Source: Companilactobacillus formosensis
GTDB lineage: Bacteria; Bacillota; Bacilli; Lactobacillales; Lactobacillaceae
Reading direction: 5' to 3'
NCBI RefSeq assembly: GCF_005405305.1
Contig: NZ_BJDU01000009.1
Coordinates: 1-64,000 of the forward strand
Length of the DNA stretch: 64,000 nucleotides
The first letter of the stretch is position 1. Each line of letters starts with the position of its first letter. Made by a program: the position numbers and the translations under genes. This document shows positions 53,928 to 57,095 of the stretch, in pieces. The notes beneath the pieces are model-generated. The model worked only from the letters and a program-made list of their open reading frames with translations. It did not search any database and had not been told where the DNA came from.

Positions 53928-54102
53928 ACTATCCAGTCCGGAATAGCAAAGCAAATTGGCTCAAATGTGAAATTTCACTTGGCAATTTATTGCCTAGTGA
54001 AAGGTCGAGCTTGAAGACTTTGCCCGTACTTGGGCTTAGCAAAGGCTCCAAGTCGTGCCCACATTGTTCCAGCCAAATTTGCTTTGCTATGGAGGACGGA
54101 AT
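53928..54102 (+). repeat. Repeat module B (full copy), part of the composite copy
   Basis: ACTATCCAGTCCGGAATAGC to GGAGGACGGAATC. Same closing stem, second helix and CTTTGC/GCAAAG helix as the 47.7-kb copy. With the preceding module A it forms a 284-bp unit whose ends GATGCCGTCGTCC and GGAGGACGGAATC are inverted repeats matching at 11 of 13 positions. It ends about 40 bp before the promoter of the attenuated transporter. Confidence 0.85.
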
Positions 54103-54140: not shown

Positions 54141-54169
54141 TTGACATTCTAATTTTTAAATGTTTTACT
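54141..54169 (+). promoter_or_regulatory. Promoter of the attenuated ABC operon
   Basis: -35 TTGACA (consensus), 17-bp spacer, -10 TTTACT. It lies 33 bp before the leader ORF and about 300 bp before the first transporter gene. Confidence 0.55.
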
Positions 54170-54201: not shown

Positions 54202-54267
54202 ATGAAAATTAATAATCAACACTCACATTTGAATAATCAATTTGCCTTTAGCTTTTTCTTTAGATAG
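54202..54267 (+). CDS. Phenylalanine-rich leader peptide
   Basis: 21 codons, ribosome site GAGGAAA before ATG 54202. The last eight residues are FAFSFFFR, so five of eight are Phe, then TAG. It resembles enterobacterial pheA/pheST leader peptides in design. The stop and last codons overlap the first arm of a set of alternative RNA hairpins leading to a terminator, as expected for a ribosome-stalling sensor of charged tRNA-Phe. Confidence 0.82.
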   Translation: MKINNQHSHLNNQFAFSFFFR

Positions 54268-54446
54268 CGTTTGTATCCTTTGATTGGATACGGACGCGTA
54301 CGTGTTCGTATCTATCGAATGGCTAAAGCTTTTAAGCATGTTTAAGAAGCCAGATAGATACAGGGTTGAATCTATCTGGAGAAAATATTTCGGGCCCGTG
54401 TATTGAAACCAGTTAGATTCTAATCTGAATCTAGCTGGTTTTTTTT
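54261..54446 (+). promoter_or_regulatory. Six-segment transcription attenuator ending in a terminator
   Basis: Segments: A 54261-54266, B 54308-54324, C 54348-54361, D 54368-54379, E 54409-54420, F 54427-54438. Register 1: A:B (TAGATA/TATCTA, enclosing a 12-bp hairpin 54267-54297), C:D (CCAGATAGAT/ATCTATCTGG), E:F (12 bp, then eight T; terminator 54406-54446). Register 2: B:C (GTATCTATC/GATAGATAC plus TGGCT/AGCCA) and D:E (11 of 12 pairs). A ribosome stalled on the Phe codons would cover A and shift folding to register 2, preventing the terminator. Confidence 0.78.
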
Positions 54447-54467: not shown

Positions 54468-55433
54468 ATGAAAAAATCAATTATCAGTTTATTAACAATT
54501 GCCATGGTGGCTTTAGTTTTAGTGGGATGTTCAAGTAATTCAGCATCAAGTAAGGAATTGAATGTCGGTATTTTACAAATTGTGCCACACGGTTCACTCG
54601 ATGCCGCTAGAAAAGGTTTCAAACAAGAACTCAATCAAGAAATTAAAAAACACGATAAATCAATTAAAGTAAATTACAACTATCAAAATGCTCAAGGAGA
54701 TCAATCTAATTTGAACTCAATGGCGCAACAATTAACACAAAAGAAAAACAACTTGATTTTAGGAATCGCAACGCCATCAGCTCAAGCACTTGCTAAGAAG
54801 ACTAAGTCAACACCGATTGTAGTAACGGCGGTTACTAATTTACAAAGTGCCGGGTTGGTTAAATCAGATAAGAAACCTGATACTAATGTCACTGGAACTA
54901 AGGATCTTGGACCAGTTGATAAACAAGTGAAATTGTTGACGACTTTGACTAAGAACAATAAGCCAATCGGAGTTTTGTACAATTCATCAGAAGAAAATTC
55001 CGTACTTCAAATCAAGATGGTTAAAAAATACGCAAAGAATCACAATTTGAAATTAAATATCGTCAGTGTAACTAGCACCAACGATGTTGCCAGTGCCGTT
55101 TCTGGAATGGCTGACAAGGTATCCGGAATTTATCTACCAACTGATAATCTGATGGCTAGTTCTATGAAGACTATTGGTAAAAAGGCTCGTGAAGCTAAAC
55201 TTCCAGTTGTAACGGGATCGATTGAAATGGCGGAAGATGGTGGAACTGCCACTTATGGAATCAACTACGAAGATCTTGGCAAACAGACAGCTAAGATGGC
55301 TTATAAAATTTTGATCGACAAAAAGAAACCTCAAGATATGCCTGTTGAAACTTCACATACTTTGAGACTCTACGTTAACAAAGCTTATGCTAAAGAAATT
55401 GGCTTAAATCCTGATCAAATTAAACAACCTTAG
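54468..55433 (+). CDS. ABC transporter substrate-binding lipoprotein (TrpX/COG2984 type)
   Basis: 321 aa, GGAGG ribosome site. Signal peptide with lipobox LVLVGC. LNVGILQIVPHGSLDAARKGF, LILGIATPSAQALAKKT, TNVTGTKDLGPVDKQVKLL, IGVLYNSSEENS and LPVVTGSIEMAEDGGTATYGINYEDLG follow the ABC_sub_bind family. Relatives in streptococci and lactobacilli are predicted aromatic amino acid (tryptophan) transporters. The Phe-rich leader upstream suggests that phenylalanine, or aromatic amino acids generally, is the cargo here (inference). Confidence 0.88.
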   Translation: MKKSIISLLTIAMVALVLVGCSSNSASSKELNVGILQIVPHGSLDAARKGFKQELNQEIKKHDKSIKVNYNYQNAQGDQSNLNSMAQQLTQKKNNLILGIATPSAQALAKKTKSTPIVVTAVTNLQSAGLVKSDKKPDTNVTGTKDLGPVDKQVKLLTTLTKNNKPIGVLYNSSEENSVLQIKMVKKYAKNHNLKLNIVSVTSTNDVASAVSGMADKVSGIYLPTDNLMASSMKTIGKKAREAKLPVVTGSIEMAEDGGTATYGINYEDLGKQTAKMAYKILIDKKKPQDMPVETSHTLRLYVNKAYAKEIGLNPDQIKQP

Positions 55434-55444
55434 GAGGTAAACTT

Positions 55445-56392
55445 ATGATTATTTCAAGTCTTGGACAAGGACTATTATGGGCACCCTTAGCAATCGGTGT
55501 TTTCATCACATTTAGAATCTTAGATATTCCTGATTTGACGACTGAAGGCAGTTTTCCTTTTGGGGCTGCAGTTGCAGTTAGTTTGATGTTAAAAGGTCAA
55601 TCGGCTATTACGGCATCATTAGTAGGATTTCTAGCTGGCTGTTTAGCAGGATTGATTACAGGACTATTAGACACTAAATTACACATTCCTTCACTATTAG
55701 CAGGAATTTTAACAATGACAGGTTTGTATTCAGTCAACATGCACATTATGGGAAAATCAAATGTTCCATTACTAAATGAGAAAGTTTTGACAGAATATTT
55801 GCCAAGTTGGAACTTAGATATTCAAACGATTGTTTTAGGATTGATTGTTACCGGTCTAGTTGTGATTTTATTGTATTTGATGTTCAAAACTAGACTAGGC
55901 TTGTCGTTGATGGCAACTGGTAACAATAAAGAAATGTCGAGTGCCAATGGGATAAATACCGATGGAATGATAATTTTCGGTTACATGATCTCTAATGGCT
56001 TGATTGCCTTATCTGGTGCTTTAATTGCTCAGAGTAATGGCTACGCTGATATTGGAATGGGAATTGGTACGATCGTTATCGGTTTAGCTTCAGTTTTAGT
56101 AGGCGAAATCTTTTTACGTGGTCACAATATTTTAACTAGATTAATAGCAATGGTCGTTGGGGCAATTGTCTATCGGTTATTGCTAACTGTGGCGATGAGT
56201 TTAGGTTTCCCAGCCGATGATCTGAAAATTTTATCAGCTATTATTTTGGTAATCGTCATCTGTGTGCCAATCATTCAAAACAAAATTCAAACGAAGCGTC
56301 AATTGAAAAAATACTTACAACAAATGGAGGCAACGGACGATGAAAGTTCTACAAGTGCAACATCTACAAAAGGTATTCTTTCCCGGGACTGA
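55445..56392 (+). CDS. ABC transporter permease (COG4120 type)
   Basis: 315 aa, AGGAGG ribosome site, about eight to nine membrane segments. Starts SLGQGLLWAPLAIGVFITFRIL, with DLTTEGSFPFGAAVAVSLM, LHIPSLLAGILTMTGLYS and GTIVIGLASVLVGEIF, related to branched-chain/ribose-type permeases. Its last 53 bases overlap the ATPase gene in another frame, indicating tight coupling. Confidence 0.9.
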   Translation: MIISSLGQGLLWAPLAIGVFITFRILDIPDLTTEGSFPFGAAVAVSLMLKGQSAITASLVGFLAGCLAGLITGLLDTKLHIPSLLAGILTMTGLYSVNMHIMGKSNVPLLNEKVLTEYLPSWNLDIQTIVLGLIVTGLVVILLYLMFKTRLGLSLMATGNNKEMSSANGINTDGMIIFGYMISNGLIALSGALIAQSNGYADIGMGIGTIVIGLASVLVGEIFLRGHNILTRLIAMVVGAIVYRLLLTVAMSLGFPADDLKILSAIILVIVICVPIIQNKIQTKRQLKKYLQQMEATDDESSTSATSTKGILSRD

Positions 56393-57095
56393 AAATGAAC
56401 GTCACGTGTTAAAAAATATTAATTTACAAGTGGACGAGGGCGACTTCATTGCCGTGATTGGTAACAATGGAGCTGGTAAATCAACATTATTAAATACGAT
56501 TGCCGGAACTTTGTCAGCTGACAGCGGAGAGATTGATTTAGCAAGCCACGATGTTTCCAAAAAATCAGTCGCTTATCGGTCTCGTTGGATGTCACGTGTC
56601 TTTCAAGATCCTAAAATGGGAACTGCTGGAGATTTAACTGTTTTACAAAATCTAGTCTTAGCTCAAAGTCATACGAATACAGTCAATTTACACTGGTATC
56701 AGAAAAAGAATGATGTTGAAAAATATCAAGAACTTTTACAGACTTTGAATATGGGATTGGAGAATTTTTTAAACACTCAAGTAAAATATCTTTCCGGTGG
56801 TCAAAGACAAGCTTTGTCATTGTTGATGGCAACTTTGAGCCAACCAAAATTACTATTGTTGGACGAACATACGGCTGCACTTGATCCTAAGACTAGTCAA
56901 GAAGTTATGAAAATTACCGACGAAATGGTGCAGAGAAAACATTTAACGACAATGATGATTACGCATAAGATGTCCGATGCTTTAAAGTACGGTAATCGTT
57001 TGATCATGGTTCAAGATGGTCAGATTAAGTTGGATGTTAAAGGTATCGAAAAACAAAATCTAAATAAAGAACAATTATTAGAAGCTTTCGCCTAA
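56340..57095 (+). CDS. ABC transporter ATPase (COG1101 type)
   Basis: 251 aa, GGAGG ribosome site inside the permease gene. Walker A GNNGAGKST, Q-loop VFQDPKMGTAGDLTVLQN, signature LSGGQRQALSLLMA, Walker B LLLLDEHTAALD with His after the catalytic Glu (typical of this subfamily), switch MITHKMSDA. Third gene of the attenuated aromatic amino acid-type uptake operon. Confidence 0.9.
   Translation: MKVLQVQHLQKVFFPGTENERHVLKNINLQVDEGDFIAVIGNNGAGKSTLLNTIAGTLSADSGEIDLASHDVSKKSVAYRSRWMSRVFQDPKMGTAGDLTVLQNLVLAQSHTNTVNLHWYQKKNDVEKYQELLQTLNMGLENFLNTQVKYLSGGQRQALSLLMATLSQPKLLLLDEHTAALDPKTSQEVMKITDEMVQRKHLTTMMITHKMSDALKYGNRLIMVQDGQIKLDVKGIEKQNLNKEQLLEAFA

Follow-up and report, generated by a model that had tools for sequence, protein, structure and literature searches.

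What controls the genes that begin at position 54468 of the window, the whole 64,000-nucleotide stretch of Companilactobacillus formosensis DNA analysed here? They encode a binding protein, a permease and an ATPase of the TrpX/Y/Z kind. The original prediction was attenuation at Phe codons through a relay of hairpins ahead of an aromatic amino acid importer; comparison upholds this core idea, but not the number of segments or the polarity that came with it. Our main reading, which we hold at a probability of roughly three in four, is that the element is a ribosome-mediated transcription attenuator that senses charged tRNA-Phe, in which a relay of three toggles links leader peptide to terminator; in relatives, the attenuators would sense Tyr, or Phe and Tyr. 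The leader, its codon bias, the alternative pairings with their covariation and the gene context can be read from sequence comparison, and computed folding suggests, with exceptions, that the choice of helix depends on ribosome position.

Leader peptide and alternating segments in the window

An ORF of 21 codons that ends in FAFSFFFR, preceded by a good ribosome site, was found as predicted (Table 1), and Phe takes up 5 of the final 8 sense codons of MKINNQHSHLNNQFAFSFFFR*. The predicted terminator with its run of eight T was also found, as was the pairing with one mismatch once called D:E, which we take as 5:6 (ATCTATCTGG with CCAGTTAGAT). Neither a T-box, in line with the prediction, nor any other Rfam family was found in the window at gathering score.

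Six segments had been proposed from the stop codon onward; we found seven alternating segments downstream of the leader ORF, plus a segment 0 inside the Phe codons. Segments 1-7 lie in the space from the stop codon to the gene at 54468, and the neighbours on either side of each are its possible pairing partners. As we read it, the six-segment scheme, being one segment short, fails to give the right sign of regulation: it had a stalled ribosome cover the first hairpin arm, whereas such a ribosome would leave segment 1 free, and it is a ribosome at the stop codon that would cover it.

Folded alone, the hairpins of the window's own leader have computed energies of -17.6 (1:2), -16.5 (2:3), -16.5 (3:4), -13.7 (4:5), -12.0 (5:6) and -17.5 kcal/mol (6:7). 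The leader as a whole folds at -84.7 kcal/mol against a mean of -54.7 for shuffled sequences (z -6.5; 0 of 200 shuffles as good). To judge by complementarity, terminator and antiterminator are mutually exclusive. The window-leader folds also contain a second pairing, of late Phe codons with segment 5, which by eye seems incomplete in other species. Between segments 5 and 6, the flanks of TCGGGCCCGT shift in concert and its GGCC core is mostly kept (Phe clade, by eye); this element is possibly a spacer or a pause hairpin.

Since the binding protein falls short of the TrpX cut-off (Table 1), it is plausible that the window's transporter takes an aromatic substrate other than that of TrpX. The same protein shares 97% identity with its counterpart in L004, and the leader region of L004 recurs in C. 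futsaii (L078).

Table 1. Features of the proposed attenuator locus, in window coordinates; ON and OFF refer to the proposed states
Feature	Position	Strand	Remarks
Promoter-like TTGACA...TTTACT	54141..54169	+	putative, by eye; 17-nt spacer, TG 1 base 5' of second hexamer
Shine-Dalgarno-like AGAGGAAA	54188..54195	+	5' of leader ORF ATG; from sequence
Leader peptide ORF MKINNQHSHLNNQFAFSFFFR	54202..54267	+	21 codons, ends FAFSFFFR
Segment 0	54246..54266	+	in Phe codons; CTTTAGC (54246-54252) would pair with 3b
Segment 1	54267..54278	+	first base is last base of stop codon; partner 2
Segment 2	54286..54297	+	partner 1 (ON) or 3 (OFF)
Segment 3	54302..54316	+	partner 2 (OFF) or 4 (ON)
Segment 3b GGCTAAAG	54321..54328	+	partner Phe codons if ribosome-free
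Segment 4	54350..54361	+	partner 3 (ON) or 5 (OFF)
Segment 5	54370..54379	+	partner 4 (OFF) or 6 (ON, antiterminator)
Palindromic conserved TCGGGCCCGT	54390..54399	+	between segments 5 and 6; 60-leader alignment, by eye
Intrinsic terminator	54405..54446	+	segments 6 and 7 with T-run; hairpin 54405-54442, eight T 54439-54446
Segment 6	54409..54420	+	partner 5 or 7
Segment 7	54427..54438	+	partner 6 (terminator)
Substrate-binding lipoprotein, TrpX-like	54468..55433	+	PF04392; NCBIfam TrpX 319 bits, cut-off 390 not reached
ABC permease	55445..56392	+	PF02653, domain match
ABC ATPase	56340..57095	+	PF00005, domain match

Conservation, gene context and covariation

We found the leader at all 30 loci reached through the downstream binding protein, the window's own included; a 27-nt core is exact in 29 of them and carries a synonymous TTC in one. 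A 31st locus, L112, also has the leader. Within Companilactobacillus, the window's genus, the motif occurs in 21/21 genomes with the orthologue and in 0/5 without it. With up to 3 mismatches, the core is present in 58 of 397 genomes of the family and in 6 of 40 genera; it is exact in 51 stretches of a named sequence collection, from Companilactobacillus, Levilactobacillus, Lactiplantibacillus, Pediococcus and Lentilactobacillus, plus two "Lactobacillus sp." records. The window's genome holds a single match (54241-54267) and no other copy when up to 3 mismatches are allowed. The binding-protein gene lies downstream in 63 of 65 unique leaders, and the records of the remaining 2 end too early. 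The leader ORF, with its ribosome site, appears translatable and is kept in homologues.

The codons TTT GCC TTT AGC TTT TTC TTT AGA TAG recur without change in 62 of 63 leaders, 33 of which were found by this very motif; with the same limit, the invariance of the Phe codons includes their wobble positions and exceeds what pairing of segment 0 with 3b explains. Downstream of the codons, the pieces of 60 aligned leaders drift yet stay complementary (left out were the truncated L081, L099 as a repeat of L016, and three identical to others). For example, a change from CTATC to CTAA in segment 3 is accompanied by changes in segments 4 and 5 (L027, L029, L060, L071 and L106; by eye).

Homologous Phe/Tyr leaders occur in other Lactobacillales and in some other Bacilli. 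Upstream of binding-protein homologues from other families, the leaders have their aromatic run at the same place, with peptides such as LNNFFFSYFR, LNNFYFSYFR, LNKAYFSYFR, LNNRYYYSYYG and LNTNFFFDFFG. A Phe/Tyr leader was found in 14 of the 19 regions L113-L131 (missing in L113, L114, L115, L116 and L127), in 30 of 30 regions L132-L161 (the run of L143 being broken by an N) and in 12 of 18 usable regions of a third set, counting L162, which repeats L124, and L170, which ends YSYF*. In the remainder of the third set, L172, L173 and L175 have leaders with WQ, L178 has a T-box, and no leader was found in the upstream regions of L166 and L169. Trp-codon leaders (SLNIVN.RWQSR*, ..SWQTWRR*, ..RWQSR..) precede a second TrpX paralogue, or else a homologue, in L113, L114, L116, L172, L173 and L175.

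Some relatives of the leader match the Rfam family RF02863 (5/20 and 10/20 sequences at gathering score, with two places common to both sets). In a strictly filtered search of 299 Bacilli genomes, the family had matches in 26 at E <= 0.001, 7 of them above its cut-off; the window's own genome gave no match. We inspected 17 matched places outside the earlier loci (L187 repeats L177) and found the same kind of leader. Six precede aroE-aroF operons (L184-L186, L188-L190), and the L186 operon, when followed further (L201), includes tyrA and pheA as well. Four precede a transporter gene (L187, L191, L195, L200), three aroF (L192, L193, L197), two pheA (L194, L199), one a transketolase and DAHP synthase (L196) and one a sodium symporter (L198). 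The products in L192, L194, L195, L196, L198 and L201 were named by NCBIfam, with the PheA of L194 at 209 bits, just below the cut-off of 219; those at other places were named by resemblance. In relatives, the codon run matches the amino acids handled by the downstream genes (Phe/Tyr codons; aroE, aroF, tyrA and pheA). Since their products synthesize or transport aromatic amino acids or provide a precursor of these, the genes lend independent support to an aromatic attenuator. The element is no peculiarity of one genome: its family reaches beyond Lactobacillales, uses Tyr as well as Phe codons and also precedes aromatic biosynthesis genes.

The codons themselves are predicted to take part in the pairing. 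Among 112 unique leaders, codon segment and 3b are paired in 773 of 784 cells, a count that is favoured because the 3b block was the best of a few registers tried. The middle base T of the sensing codon faces A or G in 105/105 Phe leaders; in the Tyr leaders, where the middle base is A (n = 7), it faces T in 6 and C in 1.

The other helices were compared in 47 diverse leaders, the 112 thinned at 93% similarity; these are related sequences, so that the statistics are not independent. Two-sided changes were found in 12 of 17 pairs of 1:2 and 4:5 taken jointly, a count that none of 500 shuffles reached, and in 4 of 8 pairs of 3:4, which 6 of 500 shuffles reached. For 2:3, 17 cells had two-sided changes, whereas the shuffles gave 6.1 and none of 500 came as high. 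Counted as pairs with two-sided change (3/9), 2:3 beat neither the shuffles (269/500 as high) nor two slid versions (5 each), and it did not beat the shuffles in further pair types (493/500 as high). In 1:2, 2:3, 3:4 and 4:5, the percentage of paired cells is higher than after any slide of the partner by 1-3 columns. These alignments show covariation of four helices predicted to be mutually exclusive, weakest for 2:3. Homologous loci, to which the original prediction had looked for its refutation, thus keep the aromatic codons and the alternative pairings.

When partners were swapped with those of the other clade, the leader's own partner was better in 1605/1605 swaps for 6:7, 1644/1680 for 4:5, 1532/1605 for 5:6 and 1373/1680 for 2:3; the test is weak for 1:2 (1030/1680) and 3:4 (951/1680). 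The 52 other-clade leaders leave out L112, L143 (an N), L162 (the repeat of L124) and two sequence duplicates. For 5:6 and 6:7, as for the folds after segment 6 described below, L130, L131, L164, L167 and L168 were also set aside (107 of 112 used). The alignment of L181 gives almost no pairing for 4:5 (-0.2 kcal/mol) or 5:6 (-0.6 kcal/mol), and L170 and L177 have a weak 5:6.

In L130, L131, L167 and L168, a T-rich run comes after helix 4:5, with a second terminator behind it; L123 and L171 also satisfy the rule of a T-rich run after 4:5. We considered whether these four Gly-type leaders are a shorter, five-segment version and rejected it: 5:6 was computed in them at about -12 kcal/mol or better. 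Hence, they are apparently tandem terminators tied to one relay rather than a five-segment device.

Proposed mechanism and computed folding

When Phe is plentiful, a ribosome at UAG would hide segment 1, since that segment begins at the stop codon (the footprint is assumed to reach about 15 nt to each side of the first P-site base); 2:3, 4:5 and 6:7 would form, and transcription would terminate 5' of the transporter genes. When Phe is scarce, a ribosome stalled on the Phe codons would leave segment 1 free to form 1:2 and would also mask segment 0, so that 3b is not taken by the codons. Segment 3, together with 3b, would then pair with 4, after which 5:6 would form and RNA polymerase would read through. 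Without translation, the codons would pair with 3b, 4:5 would form and the gene would be off; since 3b belongs to the 3:4 side, 0:3b should hold 3 off 4. In the trp attenuator, the last hairpin competition is settled by the order and speed of synthesis, and the contest of 5:6 with 6:7 should be decided likewise. We infer that charged tRNA is the signal, that the transporter takes an aromatic substrate and that 5:6 wins kinetically over 6:7.

We folded transcripts cut just after segment 6 while a ribosome mask was shifted codon by codon, for 60 Phe-clade and 47 other leaders. In the Phe clade, mean P(5:6) was 0.79-0.90 for A-site positions -33 to -21, 0.96-0.97 at -18 to -12, 0.87 at -6, 0.58 at -3 and 0.44 at the stop codon, compared with 0.60 without a ribosome, and it was high again with the A site beyond the stop (+12, +15). 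In the other clade, the means were 0.36-0.45 at -33 to -27 and 0.67-0.70 at -21 to -12, with 0.48 for a ribosome at the stop and 0.38 for none. The other clade thus has a peak over the aromatic codons, whereas the Phe clade has mainly a drop near the stop. Since 5:6 in the Phe clade already stands at 0.79-0.90 further upstream and at 0.60 without a ribosome, the fold alone fails to single out the Phe codons.

For the window leader at the end of segment 6, the contrast is small: P(5:6) is 1.00 when the ribosome stalls at F14-F18 and still reaches 0.89 when it sits at the stop; with no ribosome it is 0.985. At full length, 6:7 beats 5:6 at equilibrium in every ribosome state of this leader, and the full-length equilibrium fold is therefore uninformative for the last step. 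Computed folding, taken alone, leaves the choice between 5:6 and 6:7 undecided. Before segment 6 is made, 4:5 stands at 0.92-0.96 in the other clade whatever the ribosome position.

Co-transcriptional folding of the window leader was simulated in 24 Kinwalker-like runs. By the end of segment 6, stalls at F14-F18 gave 1:2 and 3:4, and a ribosome at the stop gave 2:3 and 4:5. With these stalls, however, 5:6 failed to form, and the F16 and F18 stalls had switched to 4:5 in the end. Without a ribosome, 0:3b and 4:5 formed at the higher barrier limit only. Since 6:7 formed in 22 of 24 runs, both exceptions being F20 stalls, the simulation does not reproduce read-through. As to dependence on ribosome position, the mean fold over the 107 leaders agrees with it, the window leader gives the 1.00 against 0.89 above, and the simulation yields the upstream toggles but not the last one.

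Alternative explanations, known systems and flanking features

Could a nascent-peptide arrest of the TnaC kind account for the locus, a conserved LN..FAFSFFFR peptide stalling at the stop codon for free Phe or another effector, with the codons no sensor? In the Phe clade, the final nine sense codons of the peptide are invariant as amino acids except for Q/E/K at the first, a leucine-asparagine upstream is kept, and segment 1 starts exactly at the stop codon, all of which would suit such a peptide. Simple attenuators are not known to need such peptide conservation. Across the family, however, the aromatic positions hold either Phe or Tyr, and the last residue is Arg, Gly, Ser or missing, with compensating RNA changes, and some leaders continue beyond the motif (RSCL*, RNCL*). 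A stall at the stop codon would, moreover, favour the OFF pairing 2:3, so that arrest of the inducer type has the wrong sign for an importer; we think this explanation quite unlikely. An ordinary short attenuator is unlikely too. Here, leader, one antiterminator and one terminator would suffice, and the extra hairpins would be by-products of repeated sequence: segments 3 to 7 are alike, so that alternative pairings might follow from this likeness by themselves, and the full relay is not demonstrated by computed folding. A shorter device may also suffice in the 6 of 52 other-clade leaders in which a T-rich run follows 4:5, yet the same rule holds in only 2 of 60 leaders of the window's clade. 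Helices 4:5, 5:6 and 6:7 are, furthermore, kept across differing clades, with the leader's own partners winning by the swap counts given above.

A metabolite riboswitch or T-box, whose structured leader would respond to the free amino acid or the tRNA itself and carry only an incidental ORF, would fit the CATGA-like conserved stretch between 3b and 4, the conserved GGGCCC element and the T-box that homologue L178 has instead. We consider it very improbable: no Rfam family reaches its gathering score in the window, while the T-box model gives 25 matches at E <= 0.001 in the same genome (6 over its cut-off); each of 63 Phe-clade leaders has an in-frame start codon preceded by a purine-rich stretch; and codon identity covaries with pairing. 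T-boxes are thus common in this genome, as the original prediction held for lactic acid bacteria, but leader peptides are not thereby excluded. It is likewise highly improbable that the element is a trans-acting small RNA, as Rfam labels the Enterococcus relatives (RF02863, sRNA_2410). RF02863 has no match in the window at gathering score; it covers the homologous leader in relatives, yet it is filed as a small RNA gene. Passages of PMC5593968 describe the E. faecium sRNA_2410, of 195 nt, which RNA-seq and Northern blots revealed as two transcripts, and its main text lacks the words "leader" and "attenuat". Against a small RNA, a leader with its ORF lies in cis 5' of aromatic genes wherever the sequence suffices (63/65, plus the 17 RF02863 places). 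The match in L133 begins inside the leader codons and stops before the 3' arm of the terminator hairpin; hence, the ends of RF02863 need not define a gene. The system is real and conserved, and it is most likely an aromatic attenuator that is ribosome-mediated and has a lengthened relay; its family is far larger than the original prediction implied.

Leader-peptide attenuators (pheA, pheST, trp, his) are classical in Proteobacteria. Like these, the window element has a short leader ORF with regulatory codons, ribosome position would pick antiterminator or terminator, and untranslated codons would pair. Unlike these, which have one toggle (segments 1-4), it would have three successive toggles, with seven segments and a codon segment, in Bacilli, and its sensing codon covaries with a downstream partner on Phe/Tyr exchange. 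A Leu leader-peptide attenuator has reportedly been described in S. aureus. For His, such attenuators are reported in Firmicutes in passages of PMC2965389 and PMC9413887. The Firmicutes His and Leu attenuators resemble the window element in using leader peptides, not T-boxes, in Gram-positive bacteria; they differ in serving other amino acids and genes and, by the same passages (PMC2965389, PMC9413887), in having the usual terminator/antiterminator arrangement. The trpXYZ genes of S. suis encode a homologous kind of transporter but carry a T-box element according to the main text of PMC9382623, which does not contain the words "leader peptide". The trpB motif (RF04312), as passages of PMC11109978 describe it, is like the window element in often lying 5' of Firmicutes ABC transporter genes with a terminator and a possible antiterminator; its authors favour a riboswitch there and leave an attenuator possible. 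It differs in being a separate motif, here found on the Trp-codon leader L175, where it may be a Trp leader-peptide attenuator.

Ribosome-mediated attenuation is already known; the Phe/Tyr family in Bacilli and the extended relay appear to be new. The full-text literature searched, with subscription papers mostly outside its scope, gave no description of either. Panina et al. is a likely earlier source. On balance, we lean towards the view that Bacilli have a large, unnamed class of Phe/Tyr attenuators for aromatic synthesis and uptake, in which the codons are a covarying arm of the switch and up to three toggles follow, RF02863 is a misfiled part and the trpB candidate is probably the Trp counterpart. 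If so, a change of specificity from Phe to Tyr would need a matching change about 70-80 bases downstream (the distance in the window), and up to three sequential toggles could sharpen or delay the response relative to the one-toggle trp design. Ribosome-based sensing of aromatic amino acids would be added to organisms thought reliant on T-boxes, with a hint at the transporter substrate, and the Rfam small RNA RF02863 would be re-labelled a cis attenuator. The natural series of relays, with Phe, Tyr or mixed codons and with or without a T-rich run of its own after 4:5, would let the purpose of chained toggles be tested.

Upstream of the leader, related loci look alike by eye at the promoter-like sequence; a consensus scan of the window missed it because the scan rule accepts only A as the second base of that hexamer pair's second member. 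Further 5', the intergenic region holds an imperfect inverted repeat (53931-53957 and 54076-54102; 27-nt arms, 81% complementary, 118 nt apart). At L009 (1184-1461), from Companilactobacillus mindensis as identified through L064, 4.6 copies of a 61-bp unit lie between attenuator and transporter gene. In the window, the ATPase and permease genes overlap by 53 bases (56340-56392).
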